Positions 2,865 through 29,551 of a DNA stretch of 64,000 bases are shown here, piece after piece. The translations under genes and the position numbers were made by a program. The notes under the pieces are model-generated. The model made no database searches. It saw only the letters and a program-made list of their open reading frames with translations, and was not told the DNA's origin. Within the stretch, counting starts at the first letter, position 1, and the number at the start of each line of letters is the position of its first letter. This stretch comes from Evansella clarkii (GTDB lineage Bacteria > Bacillota > Bacilli > Bacillales > Salisediminibacteriaceae): positions 124,001-188,000 of the forward strand of contig NZ_MTIV01000022.1 in NCBI RefSeq assembly GCF_002019695.1, in the 5' to 3' direction.

Positions 2865-4565
2865 ATGAGAAAGGAGACGAAACGATATATGCCTACTGCT
2901 ACTGCGACAAAACAAGTGTCACTTCCGGCTTCTATCTATATACCTGAATACCTCGCGGATTATTTGACATCCCACCTGTCAGGCGTGACTGTACCTGATG
3001 GGATCGACATGTCGTTTCTTCTTGATTTAGGCGTTGGCGCTCTAAGAGCCAAAATACAACACACAGAGGAATTCAACATGATCCTCACATCGGGAAAGAA
3101 ACGAATCCCCGATCGACTCACCTTTGACGAGGTCGCCATTATCATGATGACTTTATTCACCTTCAAAAACATACAGATGACCGAACGAACGGATGATACC
3201 CTGCTTGGCATCTATATCGACGAAGAGTCTTCGGATAAATACGGCACCTATGTCACAACAACCAAATACATGTATGAAATCATGGAGCGTATCGTACCGA
3301 ACTTCAAAAATAAAGACATGCAGGACGTGATCGATAAAATCGAACGTTCCGCTCCAACCGTAGAACAGACGACAGACCGCCATCTGTTCATCGTTAAAAA
3401 CGGCGTTTACGACCAGCGCACGAAAGAACTTTATCCTTTCAGCCCGGATTACGTGTATCTGACCAAGATCCCGGTCGATTACGTCCCTAACCCGATCAAC
3501 CCGATCCTTGTGGCGGCGGACGGCTATTCCTGGGATGTGGAATCATGGATTAAAGAGCTCGCCGTGGATGAGGATACCGCTACACTCATCTGGCAGGTTA
3601 TCGCAGACTGCCTGCAGCCGCATTACTCCCGTCATAAATCCATCTGGTTCTATTCAGAAAAAGGGAATAACGGGAAAGGAACAATTGGTCAGCTTATAAA
3701 GAACCTGCTTGGAAAAGGTAACTACGCCTCGTTATCCGTGGGGGATTTCAACCATGAGTTCTTAAAAGAGACCCTTCTCGGTTCTGCAGCGAACATCTCC
3801 GATGAAAATGATGTAGATGTCTTTATTGATTCAATTAAAGATTACAAAGCAAGTGTCACAGGCGATGACATCAACATCAACCGAAAGTACGAAAAACCGC
3901 TCCGGATTCAATTTCTTGGGACAAACATCCAGATGATGAACGGACTGCCGAAAACAAAGGATAAATCCGACTCCTTTTATAGACGTTTGATTATTGTACC
4001 GTTCTTAAAGTCCTTCACCAATAATGGGGAGAGAAAATACATCAAGACCGACTACATCCATGAGACTGCCGTTCTGCAGTATGTGCTGTTTAAGGCGCTG
4101 AACATGACCTTTGATGAGTACATCACACCGCAAAGCTCCGCAGAACTACTGGAATCATACAAAGAGAAGAACAACCCGGTTCTGGAATTCTGGAACGAGT
4201 TCAAAGAGGATTTCAAGTGGGATTTGGTACCGACACAGTTCTTATATGACCTTTTCGCGAAGTGGTTTGATATGAACAACCCCAGCGGAAAGATAATGTC
4301 CAAGCGGTCATTCAGCGATACCTTAGCCAATGTGATCCATACCCTGGAAGAACCTTGGGAAGTGAAAACAGGGCAGAACGACAAAGTCCGTTCCGCCGGT
4401 AGAATGGATAAAGATGAGCCTCTTATTACGGAATATGGTCTCGATAAACCGGATAGGGGCGGAAATCCGACTTGCTGGGTGAATCCAGGGTACAACGGAA
4501 CAAACGATCAGAAAAAGCGGGAGTTTCCGCGTAAAAAGACGTACCGTGGCATTATTCGCTTATAA
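2865..4565 (+). CDS. SF3 (D5/P4-type) replicative helicase-primase, 566 aa
   Basis: The C-terminal half carries superfamily 3 helicase signatures: Walker A GNNGKGT (residues about 267-273), Walker B-like ISDEND (about 312-317) and sensor segment FLGTNIQMM. This is the D5/phage P4 alpha arrangement found in phage and plasmid initiator helicases. The first 200 residues do not show a clear primase active site, so primer synthesis may come from the separate primase at 38386. GGAGGG lies 7 nt before the chosen ATG; an ATG at 2889 with its own AAAGGAG is an alternative. It lies directly upstream of the family B polymerase, together forming the likely replication core. Confidence 0.85.
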   Translation: MRKETKRYMPTATATKQVSLPASIYIPEYLADYLTSHLSGVTVPDGIDMSFLLDLGVGALRAKIQHTEEFNMILTSGKKRIPDRLTFDEVAIIMMTLFTFKNIQMTERTDDTLLGIYIDEESSDKYGTYVTTTKYMYEIMERIVPNFKNKDMQDVIDKIERSAPTVEQTTDRHLFIVKNGVYDQRTKELYPFSPDYVYLTKIPVDYVPNPINPILVAADGYSWDVESWIKELAVDEDTATLIWQVIADCLQPHYSRHKSIWFYSEKGNNGKGTIGQLIKNLLGKGNYASLSVGDFNHEFLKETLLGSAANISDENDVDVFIDSIKDYKASVTGDDININRKYEKPLRIQFLGTNIQMMNGLPKTKDKSDSFYRRLIIVPFLKSFTNNGERKYIKTDYIHETAVLQYVLFKALNMTFDEYITPQSSAELLESYKEKNNPVLEFWNEFKEDFKWDLVPTQFLYDLFAKWFDMNNPSGKIMSKRSFSDTLANVIHTLEEPWEVKTGQNDKVRSAGRMDKDEPLITEYGLDKPDRGGNPTCWVNPGYNGTNDQKKREFPRKKTYRGIIRL

Positions 4566-24651: not shown

Positions 24652-25028
24652 TATTAATAGGAATTATCTTATTTATGATCGGAGCGCTTCTACAGGTGTG
24701 TATTATCGTTAAAAAAGACAGCCTGTTATTTACTACAGGCATATCCGACCCGATATTCGGGTCCTTGTGCCTCTTGTTCGGTGGCACATATACCATCGCT
24801 CACACCCTGTACGGACCGCTCTTTAAGCTATCGGAGTTATCCACTAATACTGGGCTTTTTATGTACGCCACCCTCTCTGGAGTCACTGCAAGTGGTGTCT
24901 GCTTGATTGTAGGTGCTGCCACGTACCAGTTAAGAAAAAGAAAAGAGCAGAAAAAAAGCATTCTAAAGATCAAAGAAAAACCCTGTGTTCACTCAGAAAT
25001 CTCTGAGAAAGGAACACCAATAAAGTAA
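24648..25028 (+). CDS. membrane protein with three helices, 126 aa
   Basis: Hydrophobic segments at about residues 1-21, 37-55 and 70-92, then a basic cytoplasmic tail (RKRKEQKKSILKIKEK). ATGA overlap with the preceding gene. Unknown function; last gene before the long structured non-coding stretch. Confidence 0.65.
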   Translation: MILIGIILFMIGALLQVCIIVKKDSLLFTTGISDPIFGSLCLLFGGTYTIAHTLYGPLFKLSELSTNTGLFMYATLSGVTASGVCLIVGAATYQLRKRKEQKKSILKIKEKPCVHSEISEKGTPIK

Positions 25029-25039
25029 ATGAGAGAGAA

Positions 25040-25410
25040 TATCGGGAAGATTCGCAGACTTTGACTTTGGAAGTGAGCCACGGTTTTCGTCGCAACCGTG
25101 AGCAACTGGGGCGAATCACAAACAGACTGGTTATCTGTGAAAAGACTTCTACGTATCATGTTACGACCAACACCTAATGGTCACTCACATCGCCGAGGGT
25201 GATACGGGCGAAATAGGAGTCAAAAACAATGATCCGGGTGCTGTGCGACCCATCCTCTATCACTGGCAGTTTGCTTGCTGAAATGATGGTGAGGCAATAT
25301 GTGAATGAGGTTCGATCCCTACCAGCCCGGATAATTCTAAAAACAACCCATGTGCCAAGTTGTACAAGGGGTCAGCGGGACGTGGTAATGCCATGACCTG
25401 CTTTTTTTTA
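25040..25410 (+). ncRNA. candidate structured RNA with tRNA-like 3' domain
   Basis: Stems in order: GATTCGC (25049-25055) with GCGAATC (25111-25117), enclosing CACGGTT/AACCGTG (25079-25100); ACAGA/TCTGT (about 25120-25138); GACC/GGTC (about 25165-25181). A perfect 7-bp stem ATCCGGG (25232-25238) with CCCGGAT (25326-25332) encloses a long arm CCTC.ATCA/TGAT...GAGG (about 25253-25294) and a T-loop-like GAGGTTCGATCCC (about 25308-25319). It ends with a hairpin GGTCA...TGACC (25370-25398) and CTGCTTTTTTT, a likely terminator. No coding frame fits. At 102 nt the acceptor-like domain is too long, and its T stem too weak, for an ordinary tRNA. Confidence 0.6.
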
Positions 25411-25462
25411 TCGCTTTGGAAAAAAAATAAAAAAAAAAATAAAGACCGAAAGGAAGGGTCGC

Positions 25463-25570
25463 ATGCGAAGATGTGACGAATGTGGAAAAGAAGAAACCCG
25501 ATTACTAACTTCCGGACCACTACTGCTTTGTGAAGATTGTTATTATGGGCCTGATGAAGACTCGGATTAA
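25463..25570 (+). CDS. tiny zinc-ribbon protein, 35 aa
   Basis: GAAAGGAAGG precedes the ATG by 7-8 nt. CDEC (residues 4-7) and CEDC (about 23-26) make a minimal two-knuckle zinc site, then an acidic tail (GPDEDSD). One of several mini zinc ribbons in this replicon. Confidence 0.6.
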   Translation: MRRCDECGKEETRLLTSGPLLLCEDCYYGPDEDSD

Positions 25571-25789
25571 AAATCACGAAAGGGGTCACGTCTATGATAA
25601 TGCTGATAAACCGTAGGTTCAATACACCCATTTGTCTGAAACTTTTATGCCAATGGCTCACCTTACGACAACATCAACTGCCATAGCACCACCCTTAAAG
25701 GTTTACTGATTTATCGTTTTGATAATTTATATCAAACTCATATTCTAATTCATGAATATAAACATTGAGTGACAGACGCTTAATGAAAA

Positions 25790-26380
25790 ATCCAACCCAC
25801 ACGTAGGTGTATATATCACACATAAGGTTTTGTATTTTGTGTGGGTTGGTGCAGGTATTCGACCCAGAGAGGCTGAGGGTCGGCGTGGCCAGCAGCGGCC
25901 GTCGGAGTCAACTCCAGATCAGCTGAGGGGAGAGCATCTCCAGATCTTCGCGGGAACGCCAGTTCCAGGATCTTGAAGGCGGTGGCCCTGATGGTAATAC
26001 CTCTATCACTTGCTCCGCAGCAGGAACTTGAGAGTGATCGCGTAGATGTTGACGAAGAGGTAATGGAGAATTCGTAATCAGCTGGTATCCAGGATTTCTA
26101 TCGGATGAGGAGCTCGATGAGAATGATCCAGATCCAGAGCAGGCAACTGCAGATGCCGATCGACATGATCTCCAGGGTCCTTCTGGAGTGCAGCAGGCGG
26201 TCGAAACCAAATCATGAGGTCCTTGAACTTGAGCACGGACTCAGAGGGCACTGAAAACGATAATTGATGTCAGAATTCGCTTTCGTAACGAAAAAAAAAG
26301 GGCTGAAAGACTAACGGGTTCGGTTTTGGGAGGCAATTTGTCCTTTCGCAAGGATAATAACAACCCAAATCCAACCCTCA
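25790..26380 (+). ncRNA. candidate large ornate structured RNA, about 590 nt
   Basis: Non-coding in all frames beyond short runs, more G+C-rich than its flanks, and made of consecutive stems. An 11-bp perfect stem CCAACCCACAC (25792-25802)/GTGTGGGTTGG (25839-25849). GGCC-AGCAGC-GGCC (25887-25900). GGAAC-GCCA-GTTCC (25953-25966). ATCACT...AGTGAT (26005-26038) with inner TGCT-CCGC-AGCA. ACGAA/TTCGT (26052-26075). TCTATCG/CGATGAGA (26097-26122). GGCA/TGCC (26142-26157). CTCCAG-GGTCCTT-CTGGAG (26170-26188). A final long arm GGGTT..TTTGGG (26316-26330) with CCCAAA..AACCC (26364-26377), capped by TCCTT-TCGC-AAGGA (26341-26354). Strand is assumed from the neighbours. The bases 25571-25789 show no gene. 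Confidence 0.6.
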
Positions 26381-26509
26381 TTGACAATGAAACCGCATAG
26401 CAAATAACAATAAAAATAACCCTACTTTTAACAATTGTTTTCGTTTGGTAGTAAAATTAAAATTATGAAAATAAGACCAAAATAAATGAAATATGGAAGG
26501 ATGACAAGA

Positions 26510-26731
26510 ATGGATAAATTAACATTTAACTCAGAAGATGTAGTATTAGTAAATCTAATTCGAGAAGGCAGTGATGCTTCGGCAGAAGTTTATGCAGTTC
26601 CAGTTGAATGGGCTGATAGCAATAATATTAAACAATATGATTGGGAAGATGCGACAAGTATCCCAAGTACAGTCTATGATGAATTATTAGATTTTCCTAA
26701 AATAAATATTACTAGAGTTTGGGATATTTAA
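26510..26731 (+). CDS. hypothetical acidic protein, 73 aa
   Basis: GGAAGGATG precedes the ATG. Soluble, AT-rich codons, no motif. Followed directly by a terminator, so an isolated unit between the structured RNA and the reverse transcriptase operon. Confidence 0.6.
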   Translation: MDKLTFNSEDVVLVNLIREGSDASAEVYAVPVEWADSNNIKQYDWEDATSIPSTVYDELLDFPKINITRVWDI

Positions 26732-26766
26732 TCTAGCTCACACTTCGAATCAACAGTATATTCAAA

Positions 26767-26792
26767 AGCTTGGGAAACCCAGGCTTTTTTTG
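26767..26792 (+). terminator. intrinsic terminator
   Basis: AGCTTGGG (26767-26774), AAA, CCCAGGCT (26778-26785), T7. One G-T pair in the stem. Confidence 0.85.
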
Positions 26793-26888
26793 TAATATTA
26801 ACACCAAATTATTGCCCGAAATAACACAATGAAATCGTTTTCAATATGGACGCACAAAGCGAGTAGCAAAAAAAAGAGGTGGCCTGGA

Positions 26889-27230
26889 ATGGAACAATTG
26901 CCCGCAATCAAAATTGGCGATTGGGTCGTCATCACAGAAGACGGTCTTTGGGCTATGAATAGCTATACATTTAAAACGAAAGCGCAAGCGATTGACGACG
27001 TATCCTGTGCCACACTGGATGTGAGGAAAACCCCTAAAGTGAAACGCCAATCAAAAGGGGATTATTTTTATTACCCGAAAGACGTGGATTATGGCACATT
27101 CGGTGACTCATACAATATTAAAAGAGTAACGAAAGAAAATATAAACGAAATCAAAGAAATGCTCGAAGAACAGTGGAAGGAAGATCCGCTAAGTAATTAC
27201 GATCAGGAAATGAGGGAGAGCGATGAATAA
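26889..27230 (+). CDS. hypothetical protein coupled to the reverse transcriptase, 113 aa
   Basis: GAGGTGG lies about 6-7 nt before ATG 26889. The last 8 nt overlap the reverse transcriptase start, so the two are translated together. Small strand-rich N-terminus (IKIGDWVVITEDGLW) and acidic C-terminus. I recognise no retron effector domain in it, but position makes it the best partner candidate. Confidence 0.65.
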   Translation: MEQLPAIKIGDWVVITEDGLWAMNSYTFKTKAQAIDDVSCATLDVRKTPKVKRQSKGDYFYYPKDVDYGTFGDSYNIKRVTKENINEIKEMLEEQWKEDPLSNYDQEMRESDE

Positions 27231-28212
27231 TAACAACCCGTACTCCCTCCCCTTACTTCAGGACGGTCGCCAGCTGTTACATCTGGCTGATGACCGTTTA
27301 ATTCGTCGATTCAAAATCAAAAACAAGGGGAAACTCCGGGACGTCAATGACCCGGTTCCTGAGCTGAAAACCATATTGAAAGCCTGGAACGGGCCGCTTA
27401 CCGATTACTACGTCCGACAGCTGCAGCTAAACGGCGTCAGCCACGTTGCTCATGCGTACCTGCCGAACCGGTCGATTCAAACGAACGCGCAGGCACATCT
27501 CTACTCCCCCATCATCCAGTTTGATTTCAAAGGATTTTATGACTCCTGTAAGTTCGACTATTTCAGGGAGTCTCTCCGTGACCTTGATCCGACGCTCGAC
27601 GATCAAAACGAATATGTGATTAAACGGCTCTTGATCGACCCGAACACGGGTGGTGTAACGCAAGGGCTGCCCGTCTCGGGAGCCCTTGCAGGACTCTCGC
27701 TCATTCCGTTTTGGGTAGAACTGGCGAAAAGTCTACCTGACAACATTCGTTTTACCCAGTACTCAGACGATTTGACGTTTAGTTATACGGGCCAGACACC
27801 ACCCGGGTTTACCGTGCCCGCATTGACGCAAAAGATTTACGAGGTGTTAAAGAAAACAGACCTCTCTTTTAAATTAAACGCCGATAAGACACGCACGCAG
27901 AAAGAGCAGTACCGGAAAGTAACTGGTATCCGAATTAACCATCATAACCAGACGACCCCGTCCCGGGACGATTACCGCTTTCTGCGCCATGCGCTGTATA
28001 TTCTTTCTAAATCCGATGATCTGGATAAAGAACTTGCCGAATGGGGATTCGCATCGAAATCCGCTTTCGTTGGTAAAGTCAGCTACATGCGCTCGATTGA
28101 TTCCACCGGGAAAATCGACCGACTAATAATGAAATACCGTACCGCCTGCCGGAAGCATGACATCTTTACAACGTGGATCGACCAGGCGTATAAACGAAGT
28201 GCTTTCGCGTAG
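27223..28212 (+). CDS. retron-type reverse transcriptase, 329 aa
   Basis: Motifs: RT region X NAQAH (residues 88-92; the NAxxH signature of retron enzymes), RT3/motif A FDFKGFYD (D101), RT4 QGLPVSG (147-153), RT5/motif C YSDD (180-183), RT7 VTG (233-235; retron VTG triplet). Both catalytic Asp of motif C are present. Length is normal for retron RTs (about 300-350). Retron RTs copy a structured RNA encoded just upstream into branched msDNA and often form anti-phage systems. Here the immediate upstream gene overlaps the RT, so the template RNA, if any, must lie further up (25.0-26.4 kb) or be absent. No maturase or endonuclease domain follows, arguing against a group II intron. Confidence 0.87.
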   Translation: MNNNNPYSLPLLQDGRQLLHLADDRLIRRFKIKNKGKLRDVNDPVPELKTILKAWNGPLTDYYVRQLQLNGVSHVAHAYLPNRSIQTNAQAHLYSPIIQFDFKGFYDSCKFDYFRESLRDLDPTLDDQNEYVIKRLLIDPNTGGVTQGLPVSGALAGLSLIPFWVELAKSLPDNIRFTQYSDDLTFSYTGQTPPGFTVPALTQKIYEVLKKTDLSFKLNADKTRTQKEQYRKVTGIRINHHNQTTPSRDDYRFLRHALYILSKSDDLDKELAEWGFASKSAFVGKVSYMRSIDSTGKIDRLIMKYRTACRKHDIFTTWIDQAYKRSAFA

Positions 28213-28548: not shown

Positions 28549-28589
28549 AATTTTGAAACTTGTACGAATTAAAAGGAGTGAAATACATC

Positions 28590-28919
28590 GTGGCAACAAA
28601 TATACAAAAAGCCGCTATCTCAAGCATGAATTACTTTTTCTTGCGGATCGTGGTGGGAAAAACAACCGAAGATATCATCGAGGAAGAAGTGGCCTTATTT
28701 ATCAATCACCTTGCCGGAGAGCACGGCACGCTCGATGAAGAATTGCTTAACGCCATCAAGAAAGAAATGATTGATGGGGAATATTTCAAAGGTGTACCTA
28801 TTGAAAAAGTCAAAAACATGATAGATGAAACAGTAAAACGACTTACAGGGAGTAAAATGTCTGCAGTAACCCGGTTTTACGTAAACCTTTTAATCGAAAA
28901 TCAGAGAATTGGTGCGTGA
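28590..28919 (+). CDS. hypothetical helical protein, 109 aa (paralog of 29228-29551)
   Basis: GTG start with AAAAGGAG about 12 nt upstream. Shares SSMN(Y/H).FL...GK, GEYFK(G/D)VP....V and LTG.K......YY/F with the 107-aa product at 29228. Function unknown; local duplication with two small elements between the copies. Confidence 0.65.
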   Translation: MATNIQKAAISSMNYFFLRIVVGKTTEDIIEEEVALFINHLAGEHGTLDEELLNAIKKEMIDGEYFKGVPIEKVKNMIDETVKRLTGSKMSAVTRFYVNLLIENQRIGA

Positions 28920-29227: not shown

Positions 29228-29551
29228 GTGAAGGATACACCCGCTATTCAGTCCGTTTCCAGCATGAATCATTTATTTTTAAAGACCGTCACAGGAAAAA
29301 TCAACTATGGTGCGGTCAATCATGAACTCATTCAGTACATCAAAATTATCGCCGAGCGTTATTACACCATCGACACCTATTCGCAAAAAGCAATCATCCG
29401 AGGAATAAAAAAGGGTGAGTATTTCAAAGACGTACCATCCGATCAAGTCGAGCAAACACTGAACGACGTGATTCAGAACCTCACTGGCGAAAAATACGAC
29501 GGTGTGGCTCACTACTACGCCTACTTGATAGAAACCGCTCACAGCAACTAA
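29228..29551 (+). CDS. hypothetical helical protein, 107 aa (paralog of 28590-28919)
   Basis: GTG start after AAAGGAG. Same pattern of conserved positions as the 109-aa protein upstream (VSSMNHLFLKTVTGKI, KGEYFKDVP, NLTGEKYDGVAHYY). Unknown function. Confidence 0.65.
   Translation: MKDTPAIQSVSSMNHLFLKTVTGKINYGAVNHELIQYIKIIAERYYTIDTYSQKAIIRGIKKGEYFKDVPSDQVEQTLNDVIQNLTGEKYDGVAHYYAYLIETAHSN

Follow-up and report, generated by a model that had tools for sequence, protein, structure and literature searches.

A probable retron with a long, variable predicted msd upstream of a reverse transcriptase in Evansella clarkii

Our analysis indicates that positions 25706-26273 (plus strand) of the window, a 64,000-nt stretch of an Evansella clarkii contig, very probably encode the template (msr-msd) RNA of a retron, with the corresponding reverse transcriptase (RT) downstream at 27223-28212. 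The original prediction had placed a large structured RNA at 25790-26380 and offered, as one of its readings, that this was the template RNA of the downstream RT. That reading is now well supported by the motifs of the RT, by the linkage of RNA and RT and by a fold common to three loci. The limits had to be redrawn, since a1 starts about 80 nt upstream and the 3' arm falls outside the RNA.

The RT (329 aa, plus strand) carries NAQAH, YSDD and VTG and matches RVT_1 (E 6.7e-9), many PADLOC profiles of retron RTs (42 families with E of 0.001 or less, led by RT_II-A, 8.5e-31, and RT_III-A, 3.1e-29) and seven distinct PDB sequences (best E 3.4e-11), five of which are named as retrons and two as RNA-directed DNA polymerase only. 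NAxxH (region X) and VTG (region Y) are given as retron RT motifs in PMC6868368; they read NAQAH/VTG in the window, NAQAH/ITG in Virgibacillus sp. AGTR 4 and NARAH/VTG in Shouchella clausii AKU0647. The latter two hold the close relatives of the RT, 88% and 79% identical respectively (79.0% and 74.9% in DNA), which were found in a one-genome-per-species collection by a scan that needs exact short peptides and can therefore miss remoter relatives. Searches with the RT returned only its own copy from 35 genomes of the family and from 398 of the class, and only the Shouchella clausii RT itself from 13 Shouchella-group genomes. Among 397 genomes of the order the search gave the RT's own copy and a 51-residue C-terminal fragment in one genome (G137), 84% identical to the RT and apparently a remnant; three genomes of the family to which G137 belongs contained none. 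Viral contigs held no close relative of the RT and two distant ones, 31% and 24% identical. The motifs and matches of the RT, together with the presence of the RNA upstream in both close relatives found, speak for the retron reading. A point that weighs against it is that no effector family was recognised among the neighbouring ORFs scanned with Pfam, PADLOC and PHROGs.

From a1 to a2 the RNA measures 568 nt. In the MFE fold the 5' strand of the closing helix, a1 (25706-25720), pairs with 26254-26263 and 26269-26273 of the 3' strand, a2 (26254-26273), and the candidate priming guanosine (25721) follows a1 directly. Next come msr hairpin 1 (25763-25785), with 9 bp and a nearly invariant sequence, and msr hairpin 2 (25791-25849), whose strands, TCCAACCCACA and TGTGGGTTGG, form the perfect 11-bp stem already noticed at the 5' end in the original prediction. 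The predicted msd fills the 404 nt from 25850 to 26253, of which the part actually copied may be shorter. An invariant G immediately follows a1, as in the retrons of PMC6868368, and this favours a retron. The sequence around this G is TTTTGA or TTTTGT, and the TAGC (or CAGA, CAGC) that is frequent, though not universal, in retrons is absent, which counts on the other side; exceptions to this context, and one retron without an apparent priming G, are described in PMC6868368. A promoter scan gave 8 sites against 4.9 expected, none of them on the plus strand between 25300 and 25706.

Comparison with shuffled controls showed that the segment is structured, but only in part. The fold of 25780-26385 beats 20 of 20 shuffles (z -2.4), while one of 20 shuffles does as well as its minus strand (z -1.25), and the RNA in its corrected limits reaches z -3.2 (200 shuffles). 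The signal is confined: z is -3.6 for the first 147 nt and -0.04 for the 386-nt middle, whose fold is equalled or bettered by 95 of 200 shuffles, and so most of the nine or more stems reported over the whole stretch are at chance level. A middle that folds like its shuffles is what chance hairpins or a decayed foreign gene would give, and a minus-strand ORF of 100 aa does lie at 25908-26210. This explanation is nevertheless extremely unlikely, for the codon signal is absent in all frames, the msr domain is 85-91% identical across three hosts, and no similar sequence was found in phages or plasmids. Scored by codon usage learned from 21 long ORFs in the window, the middle stays below zero in six of six frames (best -0.15), compared with +0.126 for a piece of the RT in its own frame, a piece that was itself part of the training set. 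The lack of a sustained coding frame was thus correctly seen at the outset, as was a G+C content above that of the flanks (0.51-0.53 in 25750-26199, against 0.39 and 0.31 in the sequence immediately before and after it), and the decayed gene was rejected for want of a codon signal.

Further evidence for a retron comes from the two relatives. In all three loci the RNA lies upstream of the RT on the same strand, the msr motif occurs once per genome, and the three unconstrained MFE folds share one plan, in which a1, paired with a2, is followed by the G, a 9-bp hairpin, an 11-bp hairpin and a long variable msd. The full-length RNAs of Virgibacillus (z -4.8) and Shouchella (z -5.1), each against 200 shuffles, join that of the window in folding better than chance. 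The helix a1/a2 comprises 10+5, 12 and 14+4 pairs in the window, Virgibacillus and Shouchella (retrons were taken to have complementary ends of 8-30 nt), with a guanosine directly 3' of a1 each time. The msr contains stems of 9 bp and 11-12 bp in all three and an additional 6-bp stem in two, where one to three hairpins with stems of about 7-10 bp are expected of a retron. Two positions of a1/a2 have changed on both sides, one being C-G in the window and Virgibacillus and U-A in Shouchella, the other A-U in Virgibacillus and C-G in Shouchella. With three sequences this covariation is thin, and the 11-bp stem, which is invariant in all three, carries no covariation information. The small number of homologs accordingly weighs against our reading, as do the distances from a2 to the RT, about 930 bp in the window and about 450 nt in Virgibacillus. 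In Shouchella only 22-29 nt separate the end of a2 from the start of the RT, the compact order of standard retrons, which supports it. A model of the msr found only its own copy in 397 genomes of the order; on 14 selected loci it matched the window, Virgibacillus and Shouchella and gave a weak match (E 0.27) in Listeria phage LPJP1.

The msr and the msd differ sharply in how they are conserved. The msr domain is 90.8% identical between the window and Virgibacillus, 85.3% between the window and Shouchella and 87.2% between the two relatives. The predicted msd, counted from the 11-bp hairpin to a2, is 404 nt long in the window, 298 nt in Virgibacillus (3243-3540) and 273 nt in Shouchella (3685-3957). 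Over the full msd no shuffle of 300 reaches the similarity of the window to Virgibacillus, a result due to stretches conserved at both msd ends. Once the msd is trimmed to its core, by about 20 nt at the 5' end and 58-70 nt at the 3' end, between 31 and 430 of 500 shuffles reach the observed score in nine tests (three pairs under three scoring schemes). Nearest to a signal are one local scheme for window and Virgibacillus (31 of 500) and the global scheme for window and Shouchella (41 of 500). By percent identity, a crude measure, the Virgibacillus and Shouchella cores stand at 73.5 against 60.8-64.6 in five shuffles, which the score test (145 of 500) does not bear out. As the msr is 85-91% identical while no core similarity rises clearly above shuffles, replacement of the core fits better than steady divergence, and between its conserved ends the core looks replaced rather than slowly diverged. 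An msr conserved next to a differing core is itself a further argument for a retron.

We searched for a source of the cores. That of the window gave no match among phages or plasmids at E up to 1e-5, nor in the rest of its genome at E up to 0.001, and none was found for the Virgibacillus core in phages; for the Shouchella locus, plasmid matches in 10 records fell at query 298-375, outside the RNA. The cores fold into branched structures with z -0.04 in the window, -0.75 in Virgibacillus and -2.6 in Shouchella (200 shuffles), where the msds of known retrons fold into a long hairpin (PMC6868368); that the core of the window does not exceed its shuffles weighs against the retron reading. The msd of the window contains 23 repeated 7-mers against 8.9 in shuffles, a number that 0 of 500 reach; repeated 7-mers in the Virgibacillus and Shouchella msds are not beyond shuffles. 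GATC occurs 8, 5 and 4 times in the window, Virgibacillus and Shouchella msds, or 15-20 per kb, where the window as a whole has 4.1 per kb. We claim no enrichment, since letter shuffles (p = 0.001, 0.007, 0.017) and dinucleotide shuffles (0.09, 0.58, 0.02) differ and the latter are not clearly exceeded.

That the long msd is copied into DNA is plausible on the sequences compared here. The alternative is a retron with a short, conventional msd, in which the variable core is an uncopied insert or spacer, or in which the copy in the window is decaying. Such an arrangement would explain why the cores are unlike between loci and, in the window and Virgibacillus, unstructured against shuffles, and short direct repeats beyond shuffles in the window msd would suit it as well. 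It is harder to square with a long core, 273-404 nt, between conserved ends in all three loci, with an RT strongly conserved at 88% and 79%, or with the structured core in Shouchella, and we consider it possible but rather doubtful. The longest msDNAs named in the review PMC6868368 have 162-163 nt. Our partial coverage of the literature on long or variable msds brought up no report of natural msds of 273-404 nt.

Two further explanations would set the RNA apart from retrons. It might serve a non-retron defence-type RT, of the DRT kind, as a template for repeated cDNA or for a hidden gene. A large RNA adjoining an RT would be expected there too, but the RT with its retron NAxxH and VTG, the retron RTs among its PDB matches (5/7), the a1/a2 and msr layout, and plus-strand open stretches within single cores that reach no more than 66, 71 and 35 residues, with sub-coding scores, make this very unlikely. 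The original prediction had also offered an RNA of the GOLLD or ROOL kind, large RNAs that it described as often near tRNA-like elements; such an RNA would be unrelated to the RT. GOLLD, ROOL and a retron msr family are all in Rfam, whose coverage of retrons is narrow, so that we did not treat an Rfam match as defining for a retron. No Rfam family reached its gathering score in the window, and a scan of 24950-27000 at E up to 5 gave just three weak, unrelated matches; the window contains no tRNA gene. The covariance-model check therefore returned nothing for GOLLD, ROOL or retron ncRNA, which also counts somewhat against our own reading. GOLLD and ROOL resemble the RNA of the window in being large, of comparable size, and in sitting on phage-like elements, but the latter has no covariance-model match and stays linked to an RT in three of three loci. 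A GOLLD- or ROOL-like RNA, like any other Rfam family, was rejected for lack of a match in the window, and we regard it as the least probable of the readings considered.

The block between a2 and the RT region (26274-27206, about 930 bp) has no counterpart in Shouchella, as judged from blastn pieces and the gap. It contains the TCGC-capped arm that had been taken for the 3' end of the RNA; the arm exists (about 26313-26375) but is a separate hairpin. With the stretch downstream of it (26313-26478, plus strand) it is 75% identical in a genome of the same genus that has no match to the RT at E 1e-20, and it has the appearance of a separate element or leader that was inserted between the retron RNA and the RT. 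A plasmid search with the hairpin gave 7 weak records, outside the hairpin; its 21-nt arm matches two chromosomal places at 95% (E 0.04), where the core letters of the hairpin were not found. The block also holds two plus-strand ORFs with no family match, one of 81 aa (26486-26731) and one of 113 aa (26889-27230), the latter within a 133-aa ORF from 26829 and overlapping the RT start by 8 nt. Neither has a counterpart ORF at this place in Virgibacillus or Shouchella.

The source contig is 234,850 bp long, and those of the relatives 158 and 189 kb. Among the proteins encoded on the source contig are phage-type primases, a DNA polymerase, helicases and endonucleases (PHROGs), with weak matches to an RNA polymerase beta (1.3e-4) and one tail protein (9.5e-4). 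Capsid, portal and terminase had no match among the 39 proteins scanned, mostly the longest ORFs and in one scan from the Virgibacillus locus. The replicon is phage-like and could be a plasmid or a phage. A second, different RT of the same replicon (606 aa, phrog_1423, 1.1e-83) lies outside the window on contig C2 (L040:12094-13911). Upstream of the retron, 25040-25420 is a second noncoding stretch on the same strand with a terminator-like end (z -0.63, not better than shuffles). Its start is homologous in Virgibacillus (1227-1355) and Shouchella (2994-3130), and a hairpin in it keeps pairing across loci (CAGA/TCTG, CGGA/TCCG). Downstream of the RT, the small ORFs 28560-28919 and 29228-29551 appear by eye to be diverged copies of each other, the former without a Pfam, PADLOC or PHROGs family.

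The retron reading gains additional support from similarly built units that precede distantly related RTs in phages. Ten Staphylococcus jumbo phages have an RT of 500-517 aa, with an N-terminal extension, that is 29-32% identical over 82-84% of the window RT; the RT of Listeria phage LPJP1, with just a 171-nt gap upstream, was excluded from these counts. The stretch 5' of the jumbo-phage RT is 1.10-1.29 kb long and free of annotation in eight of the ten, the other two having one and three small annotated ORFs there. Within it, ATGNATACGTA is repeated five times in seven phages and three times in three, at a spacing of 171-214 nt. In two of the phages, the folded units have a pair of hairpins close to the 5' end, the second with 9 bp as in the window, and candidate a1/a2 of units 2, 3 and 4 in phage SA1 stay complementary via both-sided changes relative to other phages. 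A search that picked the longest helix automatically found a G immediately 3' of that helix in 21 of the 44 units and settled on different helices in the other 23; 11 of the 44 had a helix exceeding those of all 60 shuffles in length. The units score z -0.98 to -11.0, values that lean towards structure because the helix identified also fixed where each unit begins and ends. The window msr model does not match the units. From these sequences, tandem rows of three to five retron-like units would let one RT serve several template RNAs. Our partial coverage of the literature brought up no paper on tandem retron RNAs in Staphylococcus jumbo phages, and a 2023 genome paper on one of them leaves the role of its RT open (PMC10638138).

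If the window encodes a retron, pairing of a1 with a2 would place guanosine 25721 beside the end of the template at 26253, the RT would recognise the msr hairpins, and DNA synthesis would probably be primed from this guanosine. The RT would then copy the msd backwards, perhaps stopping near the 11-bp hairpin, and the product would be a branched molecule of RNA and DNA whose DNA part could reach about 400 nt. The analogy with defence retrons suggests a possible defence-like role, in which the retron would act as an element-borne anti-phage or anti-competitor module with the fast-changing msd as its sensor or bait. A broader idea, which we put forward only tentatively, is that of a retron lineage on large phage-like elements with the msd as exchangeable cargo, the jumbo-phage branch being alike with up to five tandem template RNAs. 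The msr, a1/a2 and RT would then be nearly constant while a template of 270-400 nt is replaced wholesale. If true, long single-stranded DNA would here be produced naturally by a modular system, its msd turnover tracking a fast-changing opponent, and in the jumbo-phage branch one enzyme would make several different msDNAs. It also suggests a role for the jumbo-phage RTs that can be put to the test. Were the long msd copied, it would lie well above the longest msDNAs named in PMC6868368, and nature would be swapping the msd as a module, much like engineers who use retrons as single-stranded DNA donors.

Among known systems, retrons of the order msr-msd-ret (Retron-Eco1/Ec86, Retron-Mxa1/Mx162) are alike in their RT motifs, in an RNA with paired ends that precedes the RT on its strand, in the G directly after a1, in msr hairpins comparable to those of 9 and 11 bp here and in an msd between msr and a2. 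Mx162 differs in its msd of 162 nt and transcript of 241 nt (PMC6868368), compared with the 273-404 nt predicted here, and unlike retrons such as Retron-Eco1 the present one lacks TAGC and a recognised effector, and its msd core looks replaced between close relatives. The Staphylococcus jumbo-phage RTs share upstream units with a1, two hairpins, a variable part and a2, arranged as 3-5 short tandem units instead of the one long RNA of the window. Retron-Bth1 of Bacillus thuringiensis, likened here by description, is similarly a lone retron RT that has no obvious effector; it resides on an extrachromosomal element of 234 kb in a Bacillus and makes RT-DNA (PMC12548924). Its RT, in contrast, is split by a group II intron.
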